A DNA stretch of 52,595 nucleotides from Patulibacter minatonensis DSM 18081 (GTDB lineage Bacteria; Actinomycetota; Thermoleophilia; Solirubrobacterales; Solirubrobacteraceae), in contig NZ_KI912613.1 of NCBI RefSeq assembly GCF_000519325.1, positions 2,797,353 through 2,849,947 on the forward strand, read 5' to 3'. The position numbers and the translations under genes were made by a program. Position 1 is the stretch's first letter. The number at the start of each line of letters is the position of its first letter. The notes beneath the pieces were generated by a model, which was not told where the DNA came from, did not search any database, and saw only the letters and a list, made by a program, of their open reading frames with translations. Positions 5,238 through 43,920 of the stretch are shown here, piece by piece.

Positions 5238-5279
5238 CAGCCCTCCGTCGAGCGGCGAGCGACGCATCGCGGGGGTCCC

Positions 5280-28073: not shown

Positions 28074-28095
28074 CCGACGGGCACCGGTGGTCCGC

Positions 28096-28114
28096 CCGGG
28101 ACTCCGCGTCCCGG
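28096..28114. terminator. Bidirectional hairpin between convergent genes
   Basis: CCGGGAC and GTCCCGG with a 5-nt loop lie between the S4 stop (28073) and the family 2 glycosyltransferase stop (28135). Confidence 0.5.
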
Positions 28115-28134
28115 TACGCGCCGGGGGACCGCCC

Positions 28135-29073
28135 TCAGGCGTCGCGGAGGTCGGTGCTCCCCGACCGCAGGCGCCGGACGTTCTCGGCCCGGGACGCCTG
28201 GCGGATGTCGTCCGGGAACCGGGGGATCTTCCGGAACCGGGCGATGTACCACCCGATGACGTAGGCGATGCCGCCGATCACCCGCGGCCGTTGCTTCATC
28301 CGGATCAGCCCACCGGCGACGACGCCGAGCGGGTGCGCCCCGATCGCGTAGGTGACCTCGCCCCAGCGGGTGAACGCCCGGAGGCGGCCGTCGTGGGACC
28401 CGGTCGGGCGCAGGTGGAACGTCGGAGGGTCCGCGATCGGGAGGCTCCGCGTGGCCCAGCCTCGATCGCGCGCGCGGACCTCGTCCGCGCCGTCCCACCC
28501 GATGATCGTCGGGATCGGGGCGATCGCGTCCCAGCAGGTCCGGCGGTAGAAGCGCGTGGGGCCCCGGACGTGCTGGACCGGGTGCGGCTCGATCTCGACC
28601 GCGCCGCTCGGGCTGTGGATCGCGAGGTAGGTGCCGCAGATGCCGAGGCGGGGCTCGGCCTCCATCGCGCCGAGGATGGTCTCGAAGTGGTGCGGCGCGA
28701 GCTCGAGGTCCGCGTCCATCTTCACCACGACGTCCTCGTCGCCCTCGCAGAGCTCGAGCGCCTCCTTGAACGCCCCGAACTCCGGGGCGGTGGCGAGGCG
28801 GTCCTTCGACGGCGGACGACGCGGCCGCTGCACGGTCCGCACCCATGGCTTGTCGGCGGCCCACGCCTCGCACAGCTCCACCGACCGGTCCGTCGAGCCG
28901 TCGTCGACGAGCACGAGGCGCTCGGGGAAGCGCGTCTGCCGCGCCATCGAGGCGAGGAAGCGCGGCAGGTAGTCCTCCTCGTTGAGCAGGCACACGAGGG
29001 TCAGGCAGCTCAGGTGCTCTCCGGACCGGGCCGGCGTCGGCGCATCGATGGTCTGCTCGTCTGGGTGCGCCAT
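28135..29073 (-). CDS. Glycosyltransferase family 2
   Basis: This is a 312-residue GT-A enzyme with LTLVCLLNEEDYLPRFLASM, RLVLVDDGSTDRSVELCE, the DxD motif in VVKMDADLELAP, and GWDGADEVRARDRGW near the acceptor site. The C-terminus (GGIAYVIGWYIARF) may touch the membrane. ATG 29073 is chosen because conserved text begins about 20 residues later and a TATAGT -10 box lies 40 bp upstream. The reading frame remains open for a further 4.5 kb on this strand, but that part is antisense to well-supported genes. Donor unknown. Confidence 0.88.
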   Translation of the reverse strand: MAHPDEQTIDAPTPARSGEHLSCLTLVCLLNEEDYLPRFLASMARQTRFPERLVLVDDGSTDRSVELCEAWAADKPWVRTVQRPRRPPSKDRLATAPEFGAFKEALELCEGDEDVVVKMDADLELAPHHFETILGAMEAEPRLGICGTYLAIHSPSGAVEIEPHPVQHVRGPTRFYRRTCWDAIAPIPTIIGWDGADEVRARDRGWATRSLPIADPPTFHLRPTGSHDGRLRAFTRWGEVTYAIGAHPLGVVAGGLIRMKQRPRVIGGIAYVIGWYIARFRKIPRFPDDIRQASRAENVRRLRSGSTDLRDA

Positions 29074-29113
29074 GCGGGTGATCCTGGACCTGGGCGGGGG
29101 CGAATCGCCGCGA

Positions 29114-29119
29114 ACTATA
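29114..29119 (-). promoter_or_regulatory. -10 box TATAGT for the family 2 glycosyltransferase
   Basis: TATAGT on the minus strand lies 40 bp before ATG 29073. No -35 match is present at 17 bp. Confidence 0.4.
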
Positions 29120-29220
29120 CGGGCCGGGTCGCCCCGCCCCGTGCCATGGCTCACGGCGATAGCCCGATGGTCGAGGGCGGAGGATCGGCTGGGGCGGCCG
29201 GGCCCCCGCCCGCCCATGGC

Positions 29221-29226
29221 TACCCT
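29221..29226 (+). promoter_or_regulatory. -10 box TACCCT, leaderless layout
   Basis: The last base of the box is 6 nt before ATG 29233. This is the same spacing class as several other starts in the window. Confidence 0.35.
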
Positions 29227-29232
29227 CCGTCG

Positions 29233-29445
29233 ATGGACACCGCTGACGTCGGGAAGATCGCCGCCGCCCTGATGGACGCGCTCGACCAGAACTTCGCCGA
29301 GGGCGATCTGGAGGATCTGACGTTCATCGCGACGGTGCGCGAGGGGGAGAGCCTGAACGTCATCAACATCTCGACGGCGAACGAGCGCCCGGCCGACAAG
29401 CTCTGGATGCTCGAGCACACCAAGCAGGCGACGCTCGGCACCTGA
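29233..29445 (+). CDS. Small conserved-looking protein of unknown function
   Basis: This is a 70-residue acidic protein with no signal peptide or membrane segment. It reads as an amphipathic helix (VGKIAAALMDALDQNFAEGD), then two likely strands (LTFIATVREG, LNVINISTA) and a helical end (KLWMLEHTKQATLG). I do not recognise it. Support for it being real: codon third positions fit the locus, the protein has normal composition, and ATG 29233 sits 6 nt after a TACCCT box. It is divergent from the family 2 glycosyltransferase and ends 5 bp before the stop of the next minus-strand gene. Confidence 0.6.
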   Translation: MDTADVGKIAAALMDALDQNFAEGDLEDLTFIATVREGESLNVINISTANERPADKLWMLEHTKQATLGT

Positions 29446-29450
29446 TCGGC

Positions 29451-30482
29451 TCAGCGCCGCGGCAGCGCCTCGTAGCTCGACCGCAGCGGGTAGGTGCTGT
29501 TGTCCGAGCGGACGATCACGCCGTAGTTGCGTCGCGAGCGCCCGCCGCCAGTGGCGTTCGGGATCGTGATGATGTTCGTCCCCGCCCGGGCGCAGCGCAG
29601 CTTGGTGCGGACCACGCGGGAGCCCGTGCGGGTCTTCTCGCGGACCTCGAGCGTGATCGGCACCGCCCGCCGCATCGCGACGTAGACGACCATGCCGCGC
29701 TTGCCGCGCGCCTTGATGAAGATGCTGTAGAGCGGGCTGTTGCCCTTCTTGCCGCTCTGGGCGCCCGTGCACTTGGACAGGTCGAGCCCCGAGCCGCCCG
29801 TCCCGCTCGAACCGGAGTCGCCCGAGCCCTCCGCCGTGCTGCCCGTGCCGACCGGGGCCGTCACCGACGACGTGCGGTTCGTGCTCCTGCAGCCGGTGAC
29901 GACGTCGAGCGCGTCGGCGTTGACCTTGCCGTCGTACGAGGCGTCGCAGACGATCCGCTGCCGGCAGCCGTCGGCGGCCTGGATCGTCCCCGTGCCGCCG
30001 TGCAGCCGCACCGCGAGAGGGATCCAGGCGCAGATGCCGCTGCCGCCGTCGGGCTTCGTGTTGAACATCACCAGCGAGGACTCGCCGGACTCCGCCGCGT
30101 CGACCGTGATGTCGCGGTAGAGCCGCATGTCGCAGCGCCACGACGCGTAGTCGTTGCCCGTGGGCGTGCACCCCGCGGGGGCCTCGGAGAACGGCGCCTT
30201 GTGGTCGACGATCCAGATGCACGGGATCGACGAGCCCGCGAACACGCCGCCGGCCGTCGGGTCCGCCCCGCAGCGCAGGTGGGGGAGGATGTTGATCGAG
30301 TCGCTGGTGCCCTGCAGCTTCCACTCCAGGGACTGCGAGCCGTCGGCGTTCTGGACGGCGGTCAGGGGTGCGGTCGGCGACGACGCCGACGCCGGGCTGG
30401 CGACCGCGCCCGCGAGGAGCACCAGGGCGACGGGGAGGAGCGCGAGGACACGGCGACGCAGCACCGGGCAACGGTACGTCAT
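29451..30482 (-). CDS. Secreted protein of unknown function with Gly/Ser linker
   Basis: This is a 343-residue protein. A signal peptide (residues 1-33: RRRVLALLPVALVLLAGAVA, then SPASA) precedes a Cys-containing domain (about 35-215) with at least seven cysteines, among them PTAGGVFAGSSIPCIWIVD and CDASYDGKVNADALDVVTGC. A Gly/Ser linker (about 225-243) leads to a basic C-terminal beta domain (SIFIKARGKRGMVVYVAM ... RRNYGVIVRSDNSTYPL). I do not recognise either domain. The basic tail resembles the tail of S3 in style. The gene lies back to back with the collagen-like gene across 373 bp, so both may be surface proteins under one control region. Confidence 0.8.
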   Translation of the reverse strand: MTYRCPVLRRRVLALLPVALVLLAGAVASPASASSPTAPLTAVQNADGSQSLEWKLQGTSDSINILPHLRCGADPTAGGVFAGSSIPCIWIVDHKAPFSEAPAGCTPTGNDYASWRCDMRLYRDITVDAAESGESSLVMFNTKPDGGSGICAWIPLAVRLHGGTGTIQAADGCRQRIVCDASYDGKVNADALDVVTGCRSTNRTSSVTAPVGTGSTAEGSGDSGSSGTGGSGLDLSKCTGAQSGKKGNSPLYSIFIKARGKRGMVVYVAMRRAVPITLEVREKTRTGSRVVRTKLRCARAGTNIITIPNATGGGRSRRNYGVIVRSDNSTYPLRSSYEALPRR

Positions 30483-30855
30483 CCGGGACCCATGGGCGCA
30501 GATCAGACGGGTGTCCGATCGGTATCGGCGGCGCCCGGGGCGGCGCGGGCGGGGGACCGTGCGCTGCCGTCCTCGGTCGCGCCCTCGCCGGATCGGCGGT
30601 CTCCGGCGGGCCCGGGGAACGTGGCGTGCCGGCGCTCGCCGCGCGAAGTGAACACATTGCACTCCTTTTGTCACGGAAAGTCACCGAAAGATGTAGTCTG
30701 CCGCGGCCGGTGTCCTCAGAACGCCGGCGTTCACCAGAGGGGAGGACCTCGCATCCAAGCGCGGGGGCCTCCGGTCGGCGTCGTCCCCGGACCTCGGCAT
30801 TCCCGCACCCGCGTCGCCCTCGAGGCGCGGTGCAACACGGTCCAGGAACACACAC
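30483..30855. other. 373-bp divergent intergenic region
   Basis: It lies between two genes for secreted proteins. It contains the tandem repeat TCACGGAAAG-TCACCGAAAG (30671-30690) and a promoter-like pair (below). I see no gene with convincing features and nothing else of note in 30483-30640. Confidence 0.5.
30668..30699 (+). promoter_or_regulatory. Promoter-like region with 10-bp tandem repeat
   Basis: TTGTCA (30668-30673) and TAGTCT (30694-30699) are 20 bp apart, longer than ideal. Between and over them lie two tandem copies of TCACSGAAAG. An activator bound to the repeat could compensate for the long spacer. It would serve the collagen-like gene, with a leader of about 150 nt. Confidence 0.4.
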
Positions 30856-31872
30856 ATGCAGAAGAAGACCCTCCAGGTCGTCGGCTTGGCGGCCGGCGTC
30901 TCCGTGCTCGTCGGCGGGAGCGCCGCGACGGCCAAGACGCTGATCTCCGGCAGCGACATCAGGTCCGGCACGATCTCCGCGAGGAACGTGAAGACCAGCA
31001 CGCTGACGGGCAAGCAGGTCCGCAACGGCTCGATCACGCTCGCCGACCTCTCCCCGGCCACGCGCAAGCTCGTCGAGGACAAGGCCCAGGCCGGTGCGGC
31101 AGGCGCGACCGGGGCCACCGGCGCGACGGGTCCCGGCGGGGCCAAGGGCGACACCGGTGCCAAGGGCGACACGGGCGCGAAGGGCGACAAGGGCGACACC
31201 GGCAACGCCGGCGCGAACGCCGACGGCTCCGTCACCAGCCGCGTCCGCGGCTCCGGCGACGCCGGCGTCGTGCTGAACAACGTCGCGGGCAGCGGCGGGA
31301 ACAACGCCACCGGGTCGATTACGCCGGACGGATTCACGACGGTCGTCAATGCGCCCGGCGGCGGCTTCGCGCGTGCCACCCTTCCGTTCGCTGCGGGGAC
31401 GGCGCTCAAGGACCTCCGTGCGCTGCTCTTCAAGTGGTCGGTCAAGACGCGTGCCTCGAACACCGTCACGCCGACGCTGAAGCTCGACATCACCGACGCG
31501 TCGCCGTGCACCGTCGACGCGCTGCCCGGTGGCTGCCGGAACGCCGTGTTCCCGAACAACAGCACGACGCTCGTGTTCGAGCCGTACTACACCGTGGGTA
31601 CCGTGACGTCGGACACCACCAACACGCTGGACTCCACGACTCCCAGCAAGTGGTGGAGCACGCGCGGCATCCAGGGCGCCACCAACCGCGACACGTTCGT
31701 CTCGCTCCAGTCGATCATCGACGCGAACCCCAACGCCAAGATCCAGGCCGTCTACACGGAGTCCGGGCAGAACAGCGCCGGTCCGCCGTGGTCCGGGTTC
31801 GAAGGCAGCGTCGACTACGTGAACCTCGGCGTCGTCGGCGGCGGCGTCGACCGGTTCGACTTCGGCAGCTGA
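30856..31872 (+). CDS. Secreted collagen-like protein
   Basis: This is a 338-residue protein. A signal peptide (residues 1-26) is followed by ISGSDIRSGTISARNVKTST and VRNGSITLADLSPATRKLVE, the repeat commonly preceding collagen-like tracts in actinobacteria. Gly-X-Y triplets follow (about residues 79-117: GATGATGATGPGGAKGDTG then GAKGDKGDTGNAG). The C-terminal 200 residues form a beta-rich globular domain of unknown function with two cysteines (ASPCTVDALPGGC). Collagen-like tracts trimerise, so the C-terminal domains are probably displayed as trimers. The ribosome site AGGA is about 8 nt before ATG 30856, and a long hairpin follows the stop. Confidence 0.88.
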   Translation: MQKKTLQVVGLAAGVSVLVGGSAATAKTLISGSDIRSGTISARNVKTSTLTGKQVRNGSITLADLSPATRKLVEDKAQAGAAGATGATGATGPGGAKGDTGAKGDTGAKGDKGDTGNAGANADGSVTSRVRGSGDAGVVLNNVAGSGGNNATGSITPDGFTTVVNAPGGGFARATLPFAAGTALKDLRALLFKWSVKTRASNTVTPTLKLDITDASPCTVDALPGGCRNAVFPNNSTTLVFEPYYTVGTVTSDTTNTLDSTTPSKWWSTRGIQGATNRDTFVSLQSIIDANPNAKIQAVYTESGQNSAGPPWSGFEGSVDYVNLGVVGGGVDRFDFGS

Positions 31873-31880
31873 GCACCCCG

Positions 31881-31910
31881 CCCGCGTCGTCACCCAGGTG
31901 ACGGCGCGGG
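31881..31910 (+). terminator. Strong hairpin after the collagen-like gene
   Basis: CCCGCGTCGTCACC pairs with GGTGACGGCGCGGG over 14 bp with a single G-U pair, starting 8 bp past the stop. No U-tract follows. Confidence 0.6.
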
Positions 31911-31992
31911 CATCCGCCGTCCGGCCATCCGGGCGGGCGCCGTTCGTCCAGGACGCTGGGGCGGGGCGACCTGACGCAGGACCCTCGGACGC

Positions 31993-33687
31993 ATGGCCTC
32001 CACCGCGTCCCGAGTCCGAGCCGAGCGCGCCCGCAGGCGTCGCGCGGCCCTGGCGCTCGCGAAGGAGCGCCGTCGCGTCGCCGCCTGCAAGCGGAAGGCG
32101 CGCAAGAAGGGGACGTCCGTCAAGGCGTGCACCACGAAGAAGCCACGGACCCCGGCGCGCCCCGCCGACCCGGCGATCACGCCGCGGCCGGCGCCGACGG
32201 CCCCGTCCGTCATCCTGCCCGCCCCCGCGGTCCCCGGTCCCGCGGCGCCCAGCACCGCCCAGCCGGTCACCGCCCCGTCGGTGCCGGTCGGTGCCGACGT
32301 CCCGACGGTGCCGACGCCGCCGCCGTCCACCCCGACGCCCACCAGCACCCCGTGGGGGCCCGTCACGTTCGGCCGCGTGCAGGCCACGCGCCTGCTCTGG
32401 CGGGCCGGGTTCGGGCCACGGCCGGGCGACGTGGACCGCATCCTCGCGCTGGGGCTCGACGGCGCGATCGACGAGCTCGTCGACCCGCCGGGGGTGGCCC
32501 TCACCGGCGCGGCGCCGCGCGACCAGAACGGCGGCGCGCTGAAACCGACGACGACGTGGGGCCACGACCAGCTCTGGTGGCTCGACCGCATGGTCCGCTC
32601 CAACCAGCCGCTGGTCGAGCGGATGACGCTGATCTGGCACGACTGGTTCGCGACCTCGAACGCGAAGGTCGGCAACACCGCCGGGATGCTCGCCCAGAAC
32701 GCGACGATGCGGGCCGGCGCGCTCGGATCGTTCCCGGACCTGCTGCAGAAGATCACGCAGGACCCGGCGATGCTCGTCTACCTCGACGGCTGGGACAACC
32801 GCAAGGGCCATGTCAACGAGAACTACGGCCGCGAGGTCATGGAGCTCTTCACGCTCGGCGCCGGTCGCGGGGCGTACACCGAGCAGGACGTCCGCGAGAT
32901 CTCCCGCGCCTTCACGGGCCTGAACTTCACGACGAACGCCGACGGCACGTTCACGCCCACGTGGACCGCCGCGCAGGCCGACCGCGCGAGCAAGACGATC
33001 TTCGGGAGGACCGGCACGTTCGACTGGAAGGACGCGTGCCGCCTGCTCGTCGAGCACGAGCAGCACCCGTCGTTCCTCGCCGCGAAGCTGTGGTCGTCGT
33101 TCGTGCCGACGGCCCCGGACGCCGCGACGCTCGCCGAGCTCGTCCGCGTCTACCTCGCGAACGACCGTCAGGTGAAGCCGGTCGTCCGGGCGATCCTCTC
33201 GCACCCCGACCTCCACCACGGCCAGGCGATGGTCAAGCCGCCCGCGGTCTTCGTCGCGGGTCTGCTGCGCGCGCTGAACCGGACGATCGACGTCGACCAC
33301 TGGGCCTGGATCCTCGACCTCTGCGGCCAGGTCCTGTTCTCGCCGCCGAACGTCTCCGGCTGGGACGACACCCGGTGGATGAACTCCGCCACCTGGCGCG
33401 GCCGGTACACGGCGGTCGCGGTCGCCGTCGACCCGATGACCCTCGTCCCGTGGGCCACGGACGTCGTGCAGTCGATCACCGAGACCCCGGACCAGGCCGT
33501 CGACCGCGCCCTCGCGTTCTGGGGCAACCCGCCGGTCTCCGCCGACGCACGGCGGGCGCTGGTCCTCCACGCGAAGGAGGCCGGGCTCACGCCGACCGCG
33601 CTGCTCTACAAGAAGCCCGGCTTCGCGCTCCGGCAGAACGGCCTCCGCCTGCTCGTCGGCAGCTCCTCCGACGCCCAGACCTCATGA
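31993..33687 (+). CDS. DUF1800 domain protein
   Basis: This is a 564-residue protein. An Arg/Lys-rich N-terminus (residues 1-55) and a Pro/Thr/Val linker (56-125) precede the DUF1800 domain: ATRLLWRAGFGPRPGDVDRI, ERMTLIWHDWFATSN, YLDGWDNRKGHVNENYGREV with MELFTLG, YTEQDVREISRAFTG, HPDLHHGQAMVKPPAVFVAG and NVSGWDDTRWMN. The biochemical function of DUF1800 is not established. It is nearly always encoded next to a DUF1501 protein, as here (ATGA overlap). I see no classical signal peptide; the basic N-terminus is unusual for the family. Confidence 0.9.
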   Translation: MASTASRVRAERARRRRAALALAKERRRVAACKRKARKKGTSVKACTTKKPRTPARPADPAITPRPAPTAPSVILPAPAVPGPAAPSTAQPVTAPSVPVGADVPTVPTPPPSTPTPTSTPWGPVTFGRVQATRLLWRAGFGPRPGDVDRILALGLDGAIDELVDPPGVALTGAAPRDQNGGALKPTTTWGHDQLWWLDRMVRSNQPLVERMTLIWHDWFATSNAKVGNTAGMLAQNATMRAGALGSFPDLLQKITQDPAMLVYLDGWDNRKGHVNENYGREVMELFTLGAGRGAYTEQDVREISRAFTGLNFTTNADGTFTPTWTAAQADRASKTIFGRTGTFDWKDACRLLVEHEQHPSFLAAKLWSSFVPTAPDAATLAELVRVYLANDRQVKPVVRAILSHPDLHHGQAMVKPPAVFVAGLLRALNRTIDVDHWAWILDLCGQVLFSPPNVSGWDDTRWMNSATWRGRYTAVAVAVDPMTLVPWATDVVQSITETPDQAVDRALAFWGNPPVSADARRALVLHAKEAGLTPTALLYKKPGFALRQNGLRLLVGSSSDAQTS

Positions 33688-35045
33688 CCACGCCCACGAC
33701 CACGTCCTGCTCCGCCTTCACCCGCAGCGAAGCGCTCCGGATGGGCGCTGCCCGCGCGGGCGACGGGCTGCCCGCGATCGAGCCCGGGATGCCGACGCCC
33801 GCCGGCACCGGCCTCACGCGCCGCGGCGTGCTGCTCCGCGGCGCGGGCATGGCGCTCAGCGTCTACGGGGCGTCGAAGCTCGGCGTCGACGCGCTGCAGG
33901 AGGGCGTCGCCGAGGCGGCCTCGACCCCGCAGACCCGTGTTCTCGTCTCGATCTACATGCCCGGCGGGATCGACGGGATGAGCGTCCTGGCGCCCACCGG
34001 CGACCCGCGGTACGCGACCCTGCGCCCGACCCTGAAGGTCACGACGGGCACGAGGCACAGCGTCGACCCCGGCCTGACGTGGGCCCCGGCCGCCGCCGGC
34101 CTCGCCACGCTGGACGCCGAGCGCAAGATCGCGGCGGCCCCGGCCATCGGGTACACGGGCGCGGACCAGTCGCACTTCACCTCGCGGCACTTCTGGGAGA
34201 CCGGGGACGTCGGGTTCAGCTCGGCCTACGGCTGGCTCGGGCGCTACCTCGACCGGCACGGCGCCGACGGCAACCCGCTGCAGGGCCTCAGCCTCTCCGG
34301 CAGCCTCTCGCCGACGCTGGCCCCGGCCACGGTGCCGGTCGCCGCGGTCGCCGACCCGTTCGCCCTCGGGCTCTGGACCCCGGGCATGTGGGGCGACGCG
34401 TTGCCGCCGTTCTACGACGCGCTCGCCGACCTCGGCGCGCTGCCGACCCCCGACCCGCAGCTGCGCACCGCGCGCGTGGCCCAGGGGCAGGCGGAGCAGG
34501 TCCGCCGGCAGCTCGGTGGCCTGGACGGCGCCGCGCCGTCGACGTCGGCGTACCCGGCCGGGGACTACGGCCGGCGGCTCGCCGGGCTCGCGAAGATGAT
34601 CGACGACGACCTGCCGCTGCGGTGCGTCACGGTCGACGCCCCGGGCGGGTACGACACGCACGACAACCAGGCCACGGCGCTGCCGGGCCTGCTGAAGCAG
34701 ACCTGCGACGGGATCCTCGCCTTCCAGCGCGACCTGGAGGCCCGGGGCGTCGCCGACCGCGTCGTCGTCCTCGTGTGGAGCGAGTTCGGCCGTCGCCCGA
34801 AGCAGAACGAGACCGGCACCGATCACGGCGCCGCCGGCGTCGGGTTCGTCATCGGCACGTCGGTGAAGCCCGGCCTGCTCGGCGAGTTCCCCGGCCTCGC
34901 GACGCTCGACGCGACCGACAACCTGCGCTCCACCCTCGACTTCCGCAGCGTCTACTGCGGGATCCTCGAGCAGTGGTTCGGGGTCGACGCGGGGCCGCTG
35001 GTGCCTGGCGCGAGCGGGTTCGCGCGGCCGGCACTCCTGGCCTGA
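33684..35045 (+). CDS. DUF1501 domain protein with Tat signal
   Basis: This is a 453-residue protein. The twin-arginine motif TRRGVLLRGAGMAL (about residues 38-51) predicts folded export by the Tat system. The domain resembles the sulfatase/alkaline-phosphatase superfamily: VSIYMPGGIDGMSVLAP, GADQSHFTSRHFWETGD, APGGYDTHDNQ, VVVLVWSEFGRRPKQNETGTD and HGAAGVGFVIG are metal-site-like blocks. It overlaps the DUF1800 stop by ATGA, so the two are made together and probably act together outside the membrane. The substrate is unknown. Position in this locus suggests polysaccharide or cell-surface work, but the pair is common elsewhere too. Confidence 0.9.
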   Translation: MTTPTTTSCSAFTRSEALRMGAARAGDGLPAIEPGMPTPAGTGLTRRGVLLRGAGMALSVYGASKLGVDALQEGVAEAASTPQTRVLVSIYMPGGIDGMSVLAPTGDPRYATLRPTLKVTTGTRHSVDPGLTWAPAAAGLATLDAERKIAAAPAIGYTGADQSHFTSRHFWETGDVGFSSAYGWLGRYLDRHGADGNPLQGLSLSGSLSPTLAPATVPVAAVADPFALGLWTPGMWGDALPPFYDALADLGALPTPDPQLRTARVAQGQAEQVRRQLGGLDGAAPSTSAYPAGDYGRRLAGLAKMIDDDLPLRCVTVDAPGGYDTHDNQATALPGLLKQTCDGILAFQRDLEARGVADRVVVLVWSEFGRRPKQNETGTDHGAAGVGFVIGTSVKPGLLGEFPGLATLDATDNLRSTLDFRSVYCGILEQWFGVDAGPLVPGASGFARPALLA

Positions 35046-35089
35046 TCCGAGAGGCCCGTCACAGGGTCGTGCACCCGGCTCGCCAGACG

Positions 35090-35118
35090 TTGCGAGGGGG
35101 CGGGCACGGATCTACTCT
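35090..35118 (+). promoter_or_regulatory. Promoter TTGCGA-N17-TACTCT, leaderless start
   Basis: TTGCGA (35090-35095) and TACTCT (35113-35118) are 17 bp apart, and GTG 35125 begins 7 nt after the -10 box. This is the clearest promoter in the window and predicts that the transcript starts at the start codon. Confidence 0.6.
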
Positions 35119-35124
35119 CGAGGG

Positions 35125-36195
35125 GTGTCCACACCTGAAGCCGCGCCCGGCAGCGGACCACGAGGTCTCGGCCCGGTGCCCTCCGCGAACGCCACCGGCG
35201 GGCTCGCGCCCGGCAGCCGGTTCCTGATCGTCGGCGGCGGCCTCGTCGGCGCCCACGCGGCGGTCGAGCTCGCCCGCCTCGGCCACCCGGTGACGGTCTT
35301 CAGCCGCTCCTTCAGCACGTGGCTCCTCGAACAGCGGGCGATCCACCCGTCGATCGAGCTCGTCACGGGAGAGCTCCCCGCCGGCGAGGACCTCAGCGCC
35401 CTGATCGACGCCGCCGACGTCGTCCTGCTGGTCGCCGGCTCGAGCACCCCGGCGTCGGCCGAGGACGACTCGACGGCCTCCGTCCTGGGCTCGCTCGTCC
35501 CGACGCTCACGGTGCTGGACGCGATGCGCCGCACCTCGACGCGCCGGATCGTCATGGCGTCCTCCGGCGGCACGGTCTACGGGAAGGTCCAGATCCTCCC
35601 GACACCCGAGATCCACGTCCGCGAGCCGATCTCGCTGCACGGCGTCAACCAGGTCGTCTCCGAGGAGTACGCGCTCTTCTTCGCCCGCCAGTACGGGCTC
35701 GAGCCGACGGTCCTGCGGTTCTCCAACGTCTACGGGCCCGGCCAGTACGTCCGCGGCGGCCAGGGCGTCGTGGCGGCCTGGTGCCGCGCGATCGCCAACG
35801 GCGAGCCGATCACGCTGATGGGGGAGGGCGCGCTCAAGCGCGACTTCGTGTTCGCCCGCGACGCCGCGCAGGCGATGCTCGCGGTCGCGGGGACGGACGC
35901 CCGGGGCAGCTACAACGTGGGCTCCGGGATCGCGACGGCGCTGAGCGAGGTCGAGAACCTGCTCCGCGCGATCACCGGGGAGGACTTCCCGGTCAACCGC
36001 CTGCCGTCCCGCGCGGTCGACGTCCCGGTGACCATGCTCGACTGCGGCGAGCTCGAGCGGGTCGCGGGCTGGAAGGCCACGACGTCGCTCGTGCGCGGAC
36101 TGTCGCTCACGTGGGACTGGTACTCGTCGCACGTGCCGGAGGGCCTGCCGAACCACGGCGTGGCCGCCGAGACGGTGACCGCGCCGCCGGCCTGA
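35125..36195 (+). CDS. NAD(P)-dependent epimerase/dehydratase-like protein with altered active site
   Basis: This is a 356-residue extended SDR. The dinucleotide site is LIVGGGLVGAHAAVELARLG (about residues 34-53). VMASSGGTVYGK, VLRFSNVYGPGQ, GQGVVAAWCRAIANGEPITL and KRDFVFARDAAQAML follow as in UDP-glucose 4-epimerases. The catalytic Tyr-x-x-x-Lys is replaced: where YGVSK is expected the text reads HGVNQ (SLHGVNQVVSEEYALFF). Ordinary redox chemistry is therefore doubtful. It may bind a nucleotide sugar without converting it, or use another mechanism. GTG 35125 is fixed by the leaderless promoter. The 3' end carries a 17-bp tandem duplication. Confidence 0.85.
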   Translation: MSTPEAAPGSGPRGLGPVPSANATGGLAPGSRFLIVGGGLVGAHAAVELARLGHPVTVFSRSFSTWLLEQRAIHPSIELVTGELPAGEDLSALIDAADVVLLVAGSSTPASAEDDSTASVLGSLVPTLTVLDAMRRTSTRRIVMASSGGTVYGKVQILPTPEIHVREPISLHGVNQVVSEEYALFFARQYGLEPTVLRFSNVYGPGQYVRGGQGVVAAWCRAIANGEPITLMGEGALKRDFVFARDAAQAMLAVAGTDARGSYNVGSGIATALSEVENLLRAITGEDFPVNRLPSRAVDVPVTMLDCGELERVAGWKATTSLVRGLSLTWDWYSSHVPEGLPNHGVAAETVTAPPA

Positions 36196-36211
36196 CCGCG
36201 CCGCCGGCCTG
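36178..36211 (+). repeat. 17-bp perfect tandem duplication across a stop codon
   Basis: ACCGCGCCGCCGGCCTG occurs at 36178-36194 and again at 36195-36211. The duplication spans the end of the SDR gene, so the stop TGA is repeated 17 bp later in another frame. This looks like replication slippage. Confidence 0.8.
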
Positions 36212-36234
36212 ACCGCGGCGCGGGACGCACCGGC

Positions 36235-36253
36235 CGCCGGACGTCCTCCGGCG
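36235..36253. terminator. Bidirectional hairpin between convergent genes
   Basis: CGCCGGA and TCCGGCG with a 5-nt loop lie between the SDR stop (36195) and the glycosyltransferase stop (36280). Confidence 0.45.
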
Positions 36254-36279
36254 GGCCGACCCACCGGCCGAGCTCGGGC

Positions 36280-37554
36280 TCAGGCGCCGAGGCGCCGCGA
36301 GACCTCGACGATCCGCTCGCCGTAGCGCGCCCACGAGAAGTCCTCCGCGCGCGTCCGGGCCGCCCGGCCCATCGCGCGCCGGCGCTCCGGGTCGGCGTGC
36401 AGCTCCAGCAGCCGCTCCGCGATCGCGCCCGGGTCGCGGATCGGCACGACGAAGCCGTCCTCGCCGTCGCGCAGGACGTCGCTCCCGAACGTGTGGGCGG
36501 ACATGATCGACGGCAGCCCGCAGGCCATCGCCATGATCGCCGTCTGCGGGAAGCCCTCGAACAGCGAGGGCAGGACGTAGACGTCGGCCGAGCGGTAGAT
36601 GTCGGGCATCTCGTAGATCGGGACCGGCGGCAGCAGCCGGACGTTCGGCCGGGACAGCCAGGCGTCCGTCGGGCCGATCGGGCGACCGAGGAAGACGAGC
36701 TCGCTGTTCGGGATCCCCGCCTGCTCGAACGCCTCCACCAGGTAGGAGATGCCCTTGTACTGGGAGATCTGGCCGGCGAACAGCACGCGGAACGGGCGAT
36801 CGGGGTCCTCCGGCGCCGGCTCGCCCGGGGAGAACATCTCGAGGTCGACGCCGAGCGGGGTGATCTCGAGCTTCTCCGCGGACACGCCGCGCTCGACGAA
36901 CGTGTCGCGCGCGTAGCTCGACAGCACGAGGATCCGGTCGGCCTCGGCGATCTCGACGTCCATCCGTGCGTGCCGGCGCTCGTCGAAGTACGCCAGCGGG
37001 AGCGTCGCCGCGTAGTCGGGGCGCAGGCGGTGCTCCTCGCGGGTGAGCTCCAGCGTCGTCGTGTGGTGGGCCGTCGTGTAGTCGAGGACGGAGACGGCGC
37101 CGATCCGGCGGGCCGCGCGGATCCCGGCGAGCGCCGCGCCGGCCGGCAGGACGACGACGCGGTCGCCAGGGCGCAGCGCCTTGGCGGCCGCCCGGTCGAA
37201 CCAGCGCGCCGTGCGGTCGGCGACGCGGGCGTGGATCGCCGGGCTGGGGCTCGCCCGCAGCACCGCGGCCTCGACGAACGTGCTCGGCTGCGCCACCCGC
37301 TCGACGTGCTCGGGCCGGACGCCCTCCGGGACGTTCCGCAGCCGCAGGTACCGGCGCGCCTTCTCGCCGAGCCCGGAGGGGAGGACCCGCGCGACGCGGT
37401 CCTCGAGCGCCGGCGTCGAGGCGAGGGTTGTGACGTAGGCGCGCAGGAGCCCGGCGCCCTCGAGGGCCTCGGCCATCGTCCGCTTCCACCGGAGCGACCC
37501 GGGATTCGTGACGACGACGTTGCCGGGCGGGGCTGGTTCGCGCTGGTGCGACAT
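36280..37554 (-). CDS. Glycosyltransferase family 4
   Basis: This is a 424-residue GT-B enzyme with VVTNPGSLRWKRTMAEALEG at the N-terminus, LDYTTAHHTTT, VLSSYARDTFVERGV, then VLFAGQISQYKGISYLVEAF and SLFEGFPQTAIMAMACGLPS in the donor domain. The second glutamate of EX7E is a methionine here (EGFPQTAIM), an uncommon change that may affect donor handling. A TATCGT -10 box ends 8 nt before ATG 37554 and no ribosome site is present, so a leaderless mRNA is likely. It is divergent from the fused glycosyltransferase-methyltransferase gene. Confidence 0.9.
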   Translation of the reverse strand: MSHQREPAPPGNVVVTNPGSLRWKRTMAEALEGAGLLRAYVTTLASTPALEDRVARVLPSGLGEKARRYLRLRNVPEGVRPEHVERVAQPSTFVEAAVLRASPSPAIHARVADRTARWFDRAAAKALRPGDRVVVLPAGAALAGIRAARRIGAVSVLDYTTAHHTTTLELTREEHRLRPDYAATLPLAYFDERRHARMDVEIAEADRILVLSSYARDTFVERGVSAEKLEITPLGVDLEMFSPGEPAPEDPDRPFRVLFAGQISQYKGISYLVEAFEQAGIPNSELVFLGRPIGPTDAWLSRPNVRLLPPVPIYEMPDIYRSADVYVLPSLFEGFPQTAIMAMACGLPSIMSAHTFGSDVLRDGEDGFVVPIRDPGAIAERLLELHADPERRRAMGRAARTRAEDFSWARYGERIVEVSRRLGA

Positions 37555-37562
37555 TGCCCGGC

Positions 37563-37568
37563 ACGATA
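37563..37568 (-). promoter_or_regulatory. -10 box TATCGT, leaderless layout
   Basis: The box lies 8 nt before ATG 37554 on the minus strand. The same hexamer serves the start at 49733. Confidence 0.4.
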
Positions 37569-37677
37569 GCCCGCCGCGCGGCAGGTCCCGGGCGCCGCGA
37601 CGCCTGTTCGCGGGCGGCGCCGACCGCTAGGTTTCCGTGGGCCCGAGCGCGGGCCGTCCCTCTCCACGGAGTCCTCG

Positions 37678-39633
37678 TTGCCGCCGTCGTCCAGCGTCCC
37701 GCGCGTCCTGCGCGTCATCCCGTCGATCGATCCGGAGGTCGGCGGCCCGTCGTACCACCTGGTCAACGCCGCCCTCGCCGAGGCCCGCGCCGGGACCGCC
37801 CACGCCGTCGTCGCCTGCACGCGCCGACCAGGCCAGCCGGATCCCGAGTCGGTGGCCGGGCTGCGCGCCGAGGGGATCGGCTACGTCGCCTTCGACCGCC
37901 CGCGGATCGCCTCCGGCATCGCGCTGCGCTGGGGCATCAGCCCGCGGCTCGCCGTCTGGATGCTCTGGAACGCCCGGCGCTTCGACGTCATCCACGTCGA
38001 CTTCGTGTGGACCTTCGGCGGCATCGTCGCCGCCGTCGCCGGGCGCCTGTGGGGGCGCCCGGTGATCATGACCCCGCACGAGTCGCTCACGCGGTTCGAG
38101 ATCGCGCAGTCGCGGTCGCCCCGCCGCGCGCAGCAGAAGCTCGCGATGCGCCGGCTGCTCCTGCGCGGCGTCGACGAGATCGTCGTCTCCTCGCGCCTGG
38201 AGGCCGAGCACTCCGACCTCGACGACCACGTCAGCCACGTCGTCTCGCACCCGATCGACGCGGGCGGGCCGCCGCACGACCGCCGTCGGCCGACGCCGGC
38301 CGCCGGGGAGCTCACCGTCGGGTTCCTCGGCCGCCTGCACCCGAAGAAGCGCCTGGAGATGCTCATCGACGCCGTCGGGCGGACCGGCACCGGCGTCCGC
38401 CTCGACGTCGGCGGGGACCAGCCGCCCGAGCGCTTCCGCACCCTCGGGGAGGAGGTCGCGGCGTCCCCGGACGCCGGCCGGATCGCGCTCCACGGCTTCG
38501 TCCCGGGATCCGGGCGCGACGCGTTCTTCGACGGGATCGACGTCCTCGCGATGCCCTCGGACTTCGAGTGCTTCGGGATGTCCGCCGCGGAGGCGATGGT
38601 CGCCGGGGTCCCCGTCGTCGTCAGCGACCACGTGGGCGTCGCCGACGTCGTGACCGAGTACGGGGCCGGCGTCGTCGTCCCCCGCGACGACCCCGCGGCC
38701 CTCGCGCGCGCCCTGGACGACCTGGCCGCCCACCCGGAGCGCCTGGGCCCGATGGGCGACGCCGCGCGCCGTGGCGCCCGCGAGCGGTTCTCCTACGCGG
38801 CCTACGGCGCGGAGATCGGCGTGGTCTACGACGAGGTCTCCGCCCGCCGACGACCTACACTCCGGGGCATGGCGTCCATGGCCCTCCAACGTCGGTGGCG
38901 TCAAGCCATCAAGCTCACGCGCCTCGTGCGCGTGCCCGAGTACCGGCGCGCGCTGCGCTTCGGCGTGGCCGCGACGGTCGAGCACGACCGCGCGCCGCTG
39001 CCGGACGACCTCGCGACCGTCGTCGACGTCGGCGCCAACCGCGGCCAGTTCGCGGTGATGGCCTCGCACCGGTGGCCGGACGCGCAGCTCGTCTGCTTCG
39101 AGCCGCTCCCGGAGCCCCGGGGTCTGCTGCAGCAGGCGCTCGGCGGTCACGCCCGCCTCCGCGTCGTCGACGCCGCGGTGAGCGACGAGGAGGGCACCGC
39201 CGAGTTCCACATCAGCCGCTCCGACGACTGCTCGTCGCTGCTGCCCGTCACGGACACCCACATCGAGACGTTCCCCGACTCGGTCGCCGTCGAGTCCGTC
39301 CCGGTGCGGATCGTCCGGATCGACGCCGTGCTGGACGCGCCGATCGCCCGGCCGGCGCTCCTGAAGATCGACGTCCAGGGCGCCGAGCTCGGGGCCCTGC
39401 GCGGCGCCGTCGGCGTGCTGGACCAGTTCGACGCGATCCTCGTCGAGGTCTCGTTCGCCGAGCTCTACGGCGGGCAGGCGCTCGCGTCGGACATCATCCG
39501 CTTCCTCGACGACCACGGGTTCGTGCTGACCAGCATGGGCGCGCCGTCGAACGACGCCGAGGGCCGGACGCTCCAGACCGACCTCGTCTTCGGGCCCCGG
39601 ACGACGGCGCGCCCCGAGGAGCTCGCCGCGTGA
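37678..39633 (+). CDS. Glycosyltransferase family 4 fused to FkbM-type methyltransferase
   Basis: This is a 651-residue two-domain protein. Residues 1-390 are a GT4: RVIPSIDPEVGGPSYHLVNA, MTPHESLTRFE, VGFLGRLHPKKRLEMLIDAV and the EX7E motif in FECFGMSAAEAMVAGVPVVV. Residues 398-651 are an FkbM SAM-dependent methyltransferase: VVDVGANRGQFAVMA (about 448), CFEPLPEP, VSDEEGTAEFHIS, and LLKIDVQGAELGALRGA (about 561). So one protein could add a sugar and methylate it. The join (RRRPTLRGMASMALQRRW) holds a TACACT box 7 nt before ATG 38869, so the methyltransferase may also be made alone. Start TTG 37678 has GGAG about 8 nt upstream. A TAGGTT box lies at 37628 and a hairpin at 37640-37655 in the leader. 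Confidence 0.88.
   Translation: MPPSSSVPRVLRVIPSIDPEVGGPSYHLVNAALAEARAGTAHAVVACTRRPGQPDPESVAGLRAEGIGYVAFDRPRIASGIALRWGISPRLAVWMLWNARRFDVIHVDFVWTFGGIVAAVAGRLWGRPVIMTPHESLTRFEIAQSRSPRRAQQKLAMRRLLLRGVDEIVVSSRLEAEHSDLDDHVSHVVSHPIDAGGPPHDRRRPTPAAGELTVGFLGRLHPKKRLEMLIDAVGRTGTGVRLDVGGDQPPERFRTLGEEVAASPDAGRIALHGFVPGSGRDAFFDGIDVLAMPSDFECFGMSAAEAMVAGVPVVVSDHVGVADVVTEYGAGVVVPRDDPAALARALDDLAAHPERLGPMGDAARRGARERFSYAAYGAEIGVVYDEVSARRRPTLRGMASMALQRRWRQAIKLTRLVRVPEYRRALRFGVAATVEHDRAPLPDDLATVVDVGANRGQFAVMASHRWPDAQLVCFEPLPEPRGLLQQALGGHARLRVVDAAVSDEEGTAEFHISRSDDCSSLLPVTDTHIETFPDSVAVESVPVRIVRIDAVLDAPIARPALLKIDVQGAELGALRGAVGVLDQFDAILVEVSFAELYGGQALASDIIRFLDDHGFVLTSMGAPSNDAEGRTLQTDLVFGPRTTARPEELAA
38856..38861 (+). 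promoter_or_regulatory. Internal -10 box TACACT before the FkbM part
   Basis: It lies inside the fused gene, with 7 nt between the box and ATG 38869 (MASMALQRRW). It has the same layout as the leaderless starts at 35125, 47222 and 49733. Confidence 0.4.
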
Positions 39634-40301
39634 GCGGAGCGCCCGGCACCGCGGGGGACGAGCTCGAGCGGGCGCGGGAGTCCAGCACGGTCGGCGGCCG
39701 CCCGGTCGCCGAGCTCGTGCGCTCCGGCCACCTCCCGCCGGACCCGTACGGCTTCCGCGAGCTCGTCTGGGCCGACTACGAGGCCCACTACCACTACAAG
39801 GAAGAGCCCGCCGAGCGCCGGCGGCTCCTCTTCCTCCCGCGGCTGCTGACGAACTCGTCGCTGCACGCGACGCTGCTGATCCGCCTGGTGCAGAAGGCCC
39901 CGGGGGCCACGACGTGGCTCTGGCGGCGGTTGCTGCTGGCGCTGCACGGCTGCGACGTCGGCCGGCAGACCGTGATCGGTCCCGGGCTCCAGATGACCCA
40001 CCCGACCGGGATCGTCGTCGGCGTCAACACGTCGATCGGCGCCGGGGTCACGCTCATGCAGGGCGTCACCGTCAGCCCGGTCACCACCAACTGGCGGGTC
40101 GGCGGCGAGATGGGCGTCCTCCACATCGGCGACGGCGTCACGGTCTTCGCCAACGCCGGCGTCTTCGGGCCGATCACCGTCGGCGACGACGCGATCGTCG
40201 GCTCGCTCGCGCTCGTCAGCCGCGACGTCCCGTCGCGGTGGATCGCCACGAGGGACCGCATGCGCCCGGCGAGGCAGGACGAGCTCGCCGGGGTCCGATG
40301 A
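39630..40301 (+). CDS. Serine-acetyltransferase-like hexapeptide acyltransferase 1
   Basis: This is a 223-residue protein. A helical N-terminal part (ELVWADYEAHYHYKEEPAER, LTNSSLHATLLIRLVQKAPG) precedes left-handed beta-helix turns: LHGCDVGRQTVIGPGLQMTH, GIVVGVNTSIGAGVTLMQGV, LHIGDGVTVFANAGVFGPI and VGDDAIVGSLALVSRDVPS. It looks like a CysE-type O-acetyltransferase adapted to sugars. It starts at GTG 39630 inside the previous stop, and flippase 2 starts inside its own stop. The protein at 41756 is a clear paralogue (RSDYEQLYAYKNEPVERRRL; HATFLIRL). Confidence 0.87.
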   Translation: MSGAPGTAGDELERARESSTVGGRPVAELVRSGHLPPDPYGFRELVWADYEAHYHYKEEPAERRRLLFLPRLLTNSSLHATLLIRLVQKAPGATTWLWRRLLLALHGCDVGRQTVIGPGLQMTHPTGIVVGVNTSIGAGVTLMQGVTVSPVTTNWRVGGEMGVLHIGDGVTVFANAGVFGPITVGDDAIVGSLALVSRDVPSRWIATRDRMRPARQDELAGVR

Positions 40302-41671
40302 GCACGGCGCAGGACGTCGAGGAGGTCGCACCGGTCCCCACCGTCGGCCCACCGGCCGTCCCGCGCGCCGGTCGCGCCGTCAAGTGGGCCCTCTTCGTCA
40401 GCCTCGGCGTGACCGTCGGGGTCCAGGTCGGGAACCTCGCCACCGGCGTCATCCTCGCCCGCACGCTGGGCCCGGCCGACCGCGGTGGCCTGACCGCCGT
40501 CCTGCTGTGGCCGTCGCTGCTGGCGATCGTGGGCAGCCTCGGCATCGCGGACGCGCTGACCTTCCACGCCGCGCGGGCGAGCGCCCGGGTCGGCACGCTG
40601 ATCGGGACGGCCGTCGCGCTGGCCCTGGGCCTCGCCGCGGTCCTCGCGGGCATCGGCCTGCTGATCGAGCCGCTCGTCCTGCACCGCTACGACGCGTCGA
40701 CCGTCCACGCGGCGCAGCTGCTCGTGGTCACGTTCGTCCCGATCAACCTGCTGGGCACGTTCCTGCTCGGGATCATCAACGGGCGCCAGCGCCTCGTGGC
40801 CTACCAGCTGCTGCGCGGCCTCGTGACGGTCTCGACGGCCACGGTCCTGATCACGATCGACGTGGTCTGGGGCCTCACGATCCAGAACGCGGTGCTCGGC
40901 TACATCGCCGCGAACGCGGTCACGCTCGCCGCGATCGTGGCGGTGCTGCTGGCGACGGAGCGCCCGCGCCTGCGGGCGAGTCGGCGCCTGAACCGCGAGG
41001 TCGTCCGGTTCGGTCTGAAGAGCCACACGAGCAACGTCTCGGTGCTGCTCAACGGGTCGCTCGACCAGCTCCTGATCTCCGTCTTCCTCGCGTCGAAGCT
41101 CCTCGGCCTCTACACCACCGCGGTGACCGTCAGCCTCGTCGTCGCGATGATCGGCCTGTCGGTGGCGCCGGTCGCGCTGCCGACGATCGCGAAGCTCCCC
41201 GCGGGGCCGCAACGCTCGGCGAGCGCGCGGACCTACATCTCCGCGACGTTCCTGCTCAGCGCGGCCGTGGCCCTGCCCCTGTTCGTCTTCGCCGGTCCGC
41301 TGATCGCGCTCGTCTTCGGCGAGCCGTTCCGCGAGGCCGAGACCGCGGCCCGGATCCTGCTCGCGGGCGCCGTGGTCGCGAGCACCGCACGGGCGCTCGA
41401 GGCGGTCCTGAAGGCCGTCGACCGCCCGCTCGACGCCGGCGTGGCCGAGGTGATCGCGCTCGGCGGCACCGCGATCTCCCTCGCCGTCCTGCTGCCGCTG
41501 TTCGGCCTGACGGGCGCGGCGTGCGCGTCGCTGGCCGGGAGGACCGCGAGCGGGGTGCTGCTCACCGTCCGGACGTCCCGGGCGCTCGGCGTGGGGCCGC
41601 TCCGGCTCTACGCCGTGGACGTGCGCGTGGTCGGAGCGCTGATCGGCGCCGTCCGGCGCCGCCGGGCCTGA
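40298..41671 (+). CDS. Wzx-type polysaccharide flippase 2 (MOP superfamily)
   Basis: This is a 457-residue membrane protein with about 12 hydrophobic helices. Typical blocks are GVILARTLGPADRGGLTAVL (also seen in polysaccharide exporters of the RfbX type), FVPINLLGTFLLGIINGRQR, RFGLKSHTSNVSVLLNGSLD with QLLISVFLASKLLGLY, and LVFGEPFREAETAARILLAG. It is not closely similar to flippase 1 at 23064. ATG 40298 overlaps the acetyltransferase stop, so it forms one unit with the fused gene and the acetyltransferase. It converges on the acetyltransferase paralogue at 41756. Confidence 0.9.
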   Translation: MSTAQDVEEVAPVPTVGPPAVPRAGRAVKWALFVSLGVTVGVQVGNLATGVILARTLGPADRGGLTAVLLWPSLLAIVGSLGIADALTFHAARASARVGTLIGTAVALALGLAAVLAGIGLLIEPLVLHRYDASTVHAAQLLVVTFVPINLLGTFLLGIINGRQRLVAYQLLRGLVTVSTATVLITIDVVWGLTIQNAVLGYIAANAVTLAAIVAVLLATERPRLRASRRLNREVVRFGLKSHTSNVSVLLNGSLDQLLISVFLASKLLGLYTTAVTVSLVVAMIGLSVAPVALPTIAKLPAGPQRSASARTYISATFLLSAAVALPLFVFAGPLIALVFGEPFREAETAARILLAGAVVASTARALEAVLKAVDRPLDAGVAEVIALGGTAISLAVLLPLFGLTGAACASLAGRTASGVLLTVRTSRALGVGPLRLYAVDVRVVGALIGAVRRRRA

Positions 41672-41682
41672 CGGCGGGCCGC

Positions 41683-41710
41683 GGCGCGACCGTCGGGCGG
41701 TCGGTGCGCC
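41683..41710. terminator. Interrupted GC hairpin between convergent genes
   Basis: GGCGC-GACCG pairs with CGGTC and GCGCC around a TCGGG loop, with a 3-nt bulge on the right side. It lies between the stops at 41671 and 41756. Confidence 0.4.
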
Positions 41711-41755
41711 GGTCGGGGCCGCCCGCGCTCCGGCGGGCGACCCGTGTCCGTCTGC

Positions 41756-42325
41756 TCAGTCGGCGGTCGACGGCCGCGGGGGCCGGACCTTGCCGGCGAT
41801 CGCGCTGCCGTCGGCGGGCACGTCCTCCAGCAGGAGCTGCTTGGCGCCGATCGTGGCACGGTCCCCGATCGTGATCGGGCCGAGCGCCATCGCGTGCGGG
41901 AAGAAGATCACGCCGTCGCCGACGCGGAGCCACTCCTCCAGGCCCTGGTCGGGGTACCAGCGCTTGCGGGTCGGCCCGATCGTGACGCCGTGGTGCAGGA
42001 CGACGCCCGCCCCGAACGACGTGCCCGGGCCGATCGCGATCGAGAACGGGTGCGGGAGCTCCAGGCCGGGCCCGATGATCGTGTCGGGCGCCCAGTCGAT
42101 CGCGTGCCAGGAGAGGAGCAGCCGGCGCCAGACGAACGCCGTCGGGCGCGGGGCCAGCGTGATCAGGCGGATCAGGAACGTCGCGTGGAAGCAGGCGTTC
42201 GTGATCATCCGCGGCACCATCAGGAGCCGCCGGCGCTCGACCGGCTCGTTCTTGTACGCGTAGAGCTGCTCGTAGTCGGATCGGACGAGGGCCCAGAAGC
42301 CGGGACCGCCGTCGGCGCGGGCCAC
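41756..42325 (-). CDS. Serine-acetyltransferase-like hexapeptide acyltransferase 2
   Basis: This is a 189-residue paralogue of the acyltransferase at 39630. The shared N-terminal helices read VRSDYEQLYAYKNEPVERRR and ACFHATFLIRLITLAP. The beta-helix reads AIDWAPDTIIGPGLELPHPF, AIGPGTSFGAGVVLHHGVTI and GDGVIFFPHAMALGPITIG. GTG 42325 begins 2 bp past the methyltransferase stop at 42328. The chain ends PPRPSTAD. It probably O-acetylates a different sugar of the polymer. It is the last gene of a minus-strand run of three (esterase gene last). Confidence 0.86.
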   Translation of the reverse strand: MARADGGPGFWALVRSDYEQLYAYKNEPVERRRLLMVPRMITNACFHATFLIRLITLAPRPTAFVWRRLLLSWHAIDWAPDTIIGPGLELPHPFSIAIGPGTSFGAGVVLHHGVTIGPTRKRWYPDQGLEEWLRVGDGVIFFPHAMALGPITIGDRATIGAKQLLLEDVPADGSAIAGKVRPPRPSTAD

Positions 42326-42327
42326 GT

Positions 42328-43086
42328 TCAGGCCACCGCGTCGATCACATAGTGCGTGGCGAGGTTCGGCTTCTGCCGGCGGTGCGCCCAGTTCTCGTAC
42401 GCGAGGTACGAGCGCTGCAGCGGCCGGTTGAAGCGCAGGTAGCCCCCGGCCTTGTACAGGGGGACGATGTCCCAGGAGCTCCAGCCCCCGGCCTCGAGGC
42501 GCTTGCGCAGGCCGCGGTCGGTGCAGCCGTCGTACTTCGTCGGGAACTTGTCCTCGGCCGGGAACCCGAGGAGCCGCTCCTGGGCCTTCGAGCTGATCCG
42601 GTACGGGACGACGCGGGCGGCGAGCGCGTAGAAGCCCCACGCACCCGACAGCATCGCGACCATCCGGCCGCCCGGAACCAGCGAGCGGTGCTGCGTGGCG
42701 AGCGCCGCGGCCATCGACGGGACGTGCTCGAGGACCTGCCAGCTGATCACGAGGTCGAACGACTGCGCGAGCTGGGGGAGGGGCGAGGAGATGTCGCCGA
42801 CCACCCGCTCGTCGTAGTCGCCGTCCTCGGCGCGCTCGAGCTCGTGCTCGGAGACGTCCAGGCCGACCCAGTGGCAGCCCTCGGGGCGCTGGTCGGCGGG
42901 GACGGTCGGCCGGGCGCCGGAGCCGACGTCGAGGACGCGGGCCCCTGGTTTCAGGCCGGCCGCGACGCGGTCGAGGAACGGACGCTGCCATGCGGTGCCG
43001 TAGCGCTCGGGCAGCCGCCCGGCGGCGACCTCCGCGCGCTCGGCGGCGGCCTCGTCGGTGTCTTTCGGGGTGAGGATCAGGGTCAT
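42328..43086 (-). CDS. SAM-dependent class I methyltransferase
   Basis: This is a 252-residue protein. Motif I is ARVLDVGSGARPTVPAD (about residues 50-66), followed by CHWVGLDVSEHELERA and FDLVISWQVLEHVPSMAAAL (motif IV region), then LVPGGRMVAM. The C-terminal part (GCTDRGLRKRLEAGGW) is like methyltransferases of polysaccharide clusters that cap or modify sugars. The last three bases of the gene upstream, the esterase at 43083, overlap this start (ATGA). Methyl capping often ends chain growth in Wzx/Wzy-free systems; its role here is open. Confidence 0.87.
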   Translation of the reverse strand: MTLILTPKDTDEAAAERAEVAAGRLPERYGTAWQRPFLDRVAAGLKPGARVLDVGSGARPTVPADQRPEGCHWVGLDVSEHELERAEDGDYDERVVGDISSPLPQLAQSFDLVISWQVLEHVPSMAAALATQHRSLVPGGRMVAMLSGAWGFYALAARVVPYRISSKAQERLLGFPAEDKFPTKYDGCTDRGLRKRLEAGGWSSWDIVPLYKAGGYLRFNRPLQRSYLAYENWAHRRQKPNLATHYVIDAVA

Positions 43087-43904
43087 CGTCCGGAGCTCGC
43101 GAGGTTGGTGATGACGAAGGAGGACCACGCCTGCTGCGACGCCTGGAGCGCGGCGGGGTCCACGGTGGAGTGGATGAAGGGCTGGCCGGCGGTCGGGCCG
43201 CCGGGGAGGACGACGGTGCGGGTGCCCGGGAGCGCCTTCTCGAGCAGCTCGGCCTGGCTCGGCGGCACGATCGGGTCCGTCGCGGCGACGACCTGGAAGA
43301 CCTTGGCCTTGATGCGGTCGGCCTGCAGCGCCGGGCTGAGGCGCTTCAGGTCGTCGGACCCGAAGGCGTCGACCGCGAAGCGCTTGAGCGTCCGCAGCGC
43401 GCGGCTGTCGTCCAGCACGGTGAGATCGGTCGGGCCGGCCAGCGACACGACGCACCGGAGCTTCGGGCGGCGGATCGCGAGCTCGAGCAGCAGGTGGCCG
43501 CCGGCGGACTGGCCGACCCCGCAGGTCGGGGTCGGGGTGCCGAGCTCGCGCTGGGCAGCGTCGTAGGCCGCGACGACGTCGTCCACGCCGCGCGCGCCGG
43601 CGCGGTACTCGGGGATCAGGACCGCGTAGCCCTGGCCGCGCCACAGCGGGGCGGCGACCTTCTGGAACGCGGCGACCTCCGTCGGGTTCCGGCCCTTCCA
43701 GGCGCCGCCGTGGACGAACATGACGAGTCCCTTCGGCGGCTTGCCGGCGTACGCGCCGTCGGGGAGCTCCACCGAGGCCTTCGGGGCAGGGCCGGGATCG
43801 GCGGGCTTATCGCTTCCGCACCCGGTCGTCAAGCCCGCGGCGAGCGCGATCGCGGCGAGGAATGCCGCGCGCCTGTGGGCAGGAAAAGCCACGCCGCGCA
43901 TCAT
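43083..43904 (-). CDS. Alpha/beta-hydrolase, carbohydrate esterase-like lipoprotein
   Basis: This is a 273-residue protein. A signal sequence with a cysteine (LAAIALAAGLTTGCGSDKP) suggests a lipoprotein, though the lipobox (TTGC) is imperfect. The hydrolase domain has the oxyanion block MFVHGGAWKG, nucleophile elbow GVGQSAGGHLL, catalytic Asp region VAATDPIVPP and His in FIHSTVD. The HGGAW/GQSAGG combination is that of BD-FAE-type acetyl or feruloyl esterases. It probably removes acyl groups from the exported polymer. Start ATG 43904 (tandem ATGATG). It is divergent from the tyrosine-kinase gene. The methyltransferase gene overlaps its stop. Confidence 0.85.
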   Translation of the reverse strand: MMRGVAFPAHRRAAFLAAIALAAGLTTGCGSDKPADPGPAPKASVELPDGAYAGKPPKGLVMFVHGGAWKGRNPTEVAAFQKVAAPLWRGQGYAVLIPEYRAGARGVDDVVAAYDAAQRELGTPTPTCGVGQSAGGHLLLELAIRRPKLRCVVSLAGPTDLTVLDDSRALRTLKRFAVDAFGSDDLKRLSPALQADRIKAKVFQVVAATDPIVPPSQAELLEKALPGTRTVVLPGGPTAGQPFIHSTVDPAALQASQQAWSSFVITNLASSGR

Positions 43905-43920
43905 GCCACGCACTGCTCGG

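Follow-up and report, generated by a model that had tools for sequence, protein, structure and literature searches.

The question raised by this locus is what role may be left to an extended SDR protein whose active-site segment reads HGVNQ where the family carries Y-x3-K. Few functional residues in this enzyme superfamily, one of the largest, are as conserved as the Tyr and the Lys, and the Lys of the Asn-Ser-Tyr-Lys tetrad places the nicotinamide ribose. The gene is one of those found in the window, i.e. the whole stretch of 52,595 nucleotides that was analysed, and its product has 356 residues (Table 1). Homology with the orthologues starts at about residue 31, so the true start may lie further downstream; the start codon is therefore uncertain, with GTG at 35176 as an alternative. 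A 17-bp tandem repeat of about 3.9 copies (36176-36240) runs across the end of the gene and its stop codon.

Table 1. Features of the locus, numbered from the first nucleotide of the window
Feature	Position	Strand	Basis or remark
DUF1800 gene, upstream	31993..33687	+	context
DUF1501 gene, immediately upstream	33684..35045	+	context
Divergent extended-SDR protein CDS	35125..36195	+	356 aa; possible later start GTG at 35176
Glycine-rich dinucleotide loop G37-G-G-L-V-G42, GxGxxG not GxxGxxG	35233..35250	+	alignment; one-residue gap also in solved-epimerase alignment
S60-R-S-F63 after strand beta-2, NAD-type Asp replaced	35302..35313	+	invariant in four orthologues
S119 and S123 at the family's invariant Asp and tetrad Asn	35479..35493	+	alignment
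S146-S-G-G149, segment of the retained tetrad Ser (S147)	35560..35571	+	alignment
H172-G-V-N-Q176 replacing Y-x3-K	35638..35652	+	alignments
N201-V-Y-G-P205, nucleotide-sugar pocket block, retained	35725..35739	+	alignment
K238-R-D-F241, nucleotide-sugar pocket block (R239, D240), retained	35836..35847	+	alignment
GT4-type glycosyltransferase, convergent	36280..37554	-	context
Glycosyltransferase-FkbM methyltransferase, hexapeptide acyltransferase and Wzx-like flippase genes	37678..41671	+	polysaccharide cluster

The protein is related over its full length to UDP-hexose 4-epimerases. It matches Pfam Epimerase at 7.6e-38, and its best match among the solved UDP-hexose 4-epimerases is 4zrm at 3.7e-41; with the GalE equivalog NCBIfam TIGR01179 it scored 83.2 bits, far under the 262.3-bit cut-off used. 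An AlphaFold model, for which the window protein and 15 relatives served as input, has a mean pLDDT of 84.8 and superposes on solved epimerases with a Z of about 41 over about 305 residues at 1.8 A (Z 41.6 to the UDP-glucose 4-epimerase 7ys8 over 305 residues), in agreement with Foldseek. The model displays the ordinary extended-SDR order, with a Rossmann core and a C-terminal substrate domain, and HGVNQ opens helix 171-190, the site of the catalytic Tyr and Lys in relatives.

The first-pass annotation had claimed that both catalytic residues are gone, and this was borne out by the alignments. HGVNQ aligns with the Y-x3-K segment of solved epimerases in pairwise HMMER comparison (YGIAK in 4zrm), and Tyr and Lys occupy the columns of H172 and Q176 in 54 of the 60 rows of the family alignment. 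The window protein and its three orthologues carry H172 with Gln or Ser at 176, where each of the 54 canonical rows has Tyr and Lys; beyond these four, the rows deviating from Tyr/Lys are L069 (HGLTK) and L084 (NGINK). The tetrad Asn is also replaced, by Ser123 in the window protein (the column holds Ser within the clade, His in L047), leaving Ser147 as the sole tetrad residue kept and three of the four gone. The comparison of the clade with 21 near and 33 far relatives, which shows this loss of Asn, also places S119 where the family has an invariant Asp and shows the near-invariant His of column 102 to be changed. Since Tyr, Lys and Asn are gone, the classical proton relay is missing. A catalytic pair located elsewhere was considered and rejected: no Tyr/Lys pair at another site substitutes for it, the HGVNQ helix lying at its normal position in the model, and K154 is not conserved (Ala, Ala and Glu in the orthologues).

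Departures from the Tyr of the motif were also observed outside the clade. L069, a more distant relative, is without Tyr and keeps Lys and Asn; its loss of Tyr is a separate event. A second SDR of the window (49754-50818, forward strand), nearest to CDP-tyvelose 2-epimerases, reads HSLFGVSK against HSPYGCSK, with Tyr changed to Phe and Lys kept. HSLFGASK occurs in two homologues of this second SDR, 60-62% identical, from Deinococcus and Azospirillum, and the Phe therefore looks like a family trait.

The whole genome of 5.52 Mb holds one gene of the HGVNQ type. Its orthologues were found in three other genomes, with HGHNS (L018), HGHHS (L047) and HGMNS (L019) at the same columns, their identity to the window protein being 48-51% across the alignment and 49-53% in the search output. 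L018 and L047 belong to the same genus, so that the four genomes represent three genera of one bacterial family. As the pair is missing at the same columns in the three orthologues, neither a sequencing error nor chance accounts for it and, judged from these alignments, the loss is not a private mutation. The distribution is patchy: clade members occur in 4 of the 146 genomes of the family, and none was found in other genomes of the same genus at the threshold used. Apart from the window's own, no clade member turned up in a phylum-wide sample of 396 genomes, in 199 genomes of the phylum of G802 or in 297 genomes of the class of G801, the last search being run without a positive control; the passing matches in these wider samples were relatives with Tyr and Lys, L069 being the exception. 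A scan of the genome contig collection and searches of viral, phage and plasmid collections gave distant relatives only.

In a tree of the 60 rows (LG+C20, ultrafast bootstrap/SH-aLRT), the four proteins form one clade with 100/100 support, and with 100/99 after removal of the 16 trait columns. Its sister is L020 (97/95; 95/95 without the trait columns), which no longer has the tetrad Asn or the beta-2 acid and keeps Tyr and Lys in YGVMK. A single loss is the simplest history. A stepwise order, whereby Asn and the beta-2 acid were lost before Tyr and Lys, may tentatively be proposed, the caution being due to the long branch of L020.

The claim that the cofactor and sugar-binding blocks remain held for one half only. 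The nucleotide-sugar pocket residues N201, R239 and D240 are kept. At the cofactor site, besides the lost tetrad Asn, the glycine loop VGGGLVG is one residue shorter, giving GxGxxG in place of the TGxxGxxG of extended SDRs, and Ser-Arg stands after beta-2 instead of the NAD-type Asp, a change that hints at NADP(H). An Arg-containing loop after beta-2 is a known NADP determinant, as stated for MAT2B (PMC3793261), and this role may carry over to the window protein.

The gene lies in a polysaccharide region with genes for glycosyltransferases, an FkbM methyltransferase, hexapeptide acyltransferases, a flippase and Wzz-like proteins. Glycosyltransferase and methyltransferase genes also surround both L018 and L019; the contig of L047 is too short for its neighbourhood to be read, and the context thus covers the window gene, L018 and L019, among which no common neighbour names a partner. 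The DUF1800 and DUF1501 genes upstream share a 4-base overlap. As fixed partners they were rejected, since the genes scanned up to about 10 kb from two other orthologues did not include the pair. On a Rhodobacter plasmid the same pair adjoins a relative that has Tyr and Lys (L055), and in bacterial chitin-synthase loci it lies close to a sugar epimerase (PMC5122149). Elsewhere in the window, three reverse-strand genes of about 250 aa (327-1067, 3720-4460 and 4509-5267) have similar N-terminal sequences and no Pfam match, and are apparent paralogues.

The reading preferred here, with a probability put at slightly over one half (about 0.52), is that of a conserved pseudo-SDR which binds ligands without classical hydride transfer and acts as a partner or sensor in a surface-polysaccharide cluster. 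On this reading a UDP-hexose epimerase-like ancestor bearing Tyr and Lys lost Asn, Tyr and Lys but kept its fold, its tetrad Ser and its nucleotide-sugar pocket. The resulting protein would bind a nucleotide sugar and, through the GxGxxG loop and the Ser-Arg-Ser motif, probably NADP(H) as well; it would perform no classical hydride transfer, and could have a regulatory or structural role towards the other enzymes of the cluster, as a partner or sensor under ligand control. The choice between a sensor, a non-catalytic subunit and new chemistry lies beyond sequence, but the combined loss of Asn, Tyr and Lys favours a non-catalytic role. Against the pseudo-SDR reading, the clade has only four members, is patchily distributed and shows no conserved neighbour identifying a partner, and the constancy of His172 across the four orthologues would suit a catalytic His too.

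That His is the starting point of a less probable explanation, an active enzyme of altered chemistry in which His172, aided by Ser147, would serve as acid/base in the nucleotide-sugar pocket, in a Tyr-Lys-independent reaction or with NADP(H) as cofactor. The clade does not vary at His172, Gly173 and Ser147, nor at about a third of all columns; the retained nucleotide-sugar pocket would suit such an enzyme, and the clade has fixed residues of its own (S60-R-S-F, W66, S119, R210, G212 and W219), as expected for a new function. On the other hand, the clade lacks the tetrad Asn as well as the Lys needed to place the nicotinamide ribose, and the Lys position is variable, Gln or Ser. Active SDRs without Tyr do exist, namely the 4,6-dehydratases PglF and WbpM, which are likewise nucleotide-sugar SDRs of glycan loci; they keep Lys, and Thr-Asp-Lys acts as the substitute base (PMC8987622). 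The window protein has S-G-G and H-x3-Q against their T-D-K and M-x3-K, with no dehydratase Asp/Glu or Asp/Lys pair after the Ser. With both the proton relay and the PglF-type substitute missing, a non-catalytic ligand-binding role is judged most likely. The more specific proposal of a His-centred active site working with NADP(H) instead of Tyr-Lys, and of a nucleotide-sugar reaction new for the fold, is doubtful.

Decay of an epimerase copy whose function is being lost would agree with the three missing tetrad residues and with the patchy distribution, including the lack of the gene from other genomes of the genus at the threshold used. It is nevertheless very improbable, given four frames about 50% identical whose loss is common from one ancestor, with unchanged pocket residues. 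In all pairwise comparisons of the four genes, differences are most frequent at third codon positions (0.45-0.58 versus 0.25-0.43), a pattern in line with selection on the protein; codon-position differences were used here as the divergence is too high for formal dN/dS. The first-pass annotation had also argued against decay, from what it took for the best promoter of the window. Its conclusion stands on the three orthologues with their common loss instead: a sigma-70 scan of 34600-35300 and 28000-44000, covering one consensus, found no promoter-like site, and the promoter was discarded as evidence of use. A weak TTGCGA...TACTCT was noted by eye just upstream of the GTG, an arrangement that would fit leaderless transcription. 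Ordinary nucleotide-sugar epimerase activity despite the substitutions, suggested by the strong fold and family matches, is equally improbable, as every one of the 54 canonical rows carries Tyr and Lys, whereas Asn, Tyr and Lys are jointly absent here.

SDRs with irregular active sites are already known (PMC3144213); among the open papers listed in literature searches on SDR pseudoenzymes and Tyr-less SDRs, no title or abstract describes this four-member clade. Because Tyr, Lys and Asn were lost once and the gene was then kept in glycan clusters of three genera, the clade offers a clean natural test of whether SDR folds find new use as sensors or scaffolds, or are able to work with a different base. 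The case also calls for caution against annotating such genes as epimerases.

Among known systems, the NmrA/HSCARG redox-sensor SDRs and the complex I subunit NDUFA9 are SDR-descended Rossmann proteins used for binding and not for turnover, NDUFA9 being a non-catalytic precedent with bound NADPH (PMC8762328). Sensors of the NmrA type bind NAD(P) without turnover and work through partner proteins. All these are eukaryotic members of other SDR subfamilies, and the analogy is one of mode of working. With the 4-epimerases T. maritima TM0509 (4zrm), M. tuberculosis Rv3634c (7ys8) and P. protegens 6wjb, acting on UDP-glucose/UDP-GlcNAc, the window protein shares 27-29% identity, the whole fold, the tetrad Ser and the N201 and R239-D240 blocks; unlike them, it is without the tetrad Tyr, Lys and Asn, and has GxGxxG and a Ser-Arg for the beta-2 Asp. 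Nearest outside the clade, at 33-36% identity in the pairs measured, is an epimerase-like family of polysaccharide loci marked by SSGGTVYG...SYGIVK, with examples in Rhodobacter sp. CZR27 (WP_096788095.1, L055) and L060-L066. Its gene neighbourhoods are of the same type as that of the window gene, but this family keeps Asn, Ser, Tyr and Lys, where the window protein keeps only the Ser.
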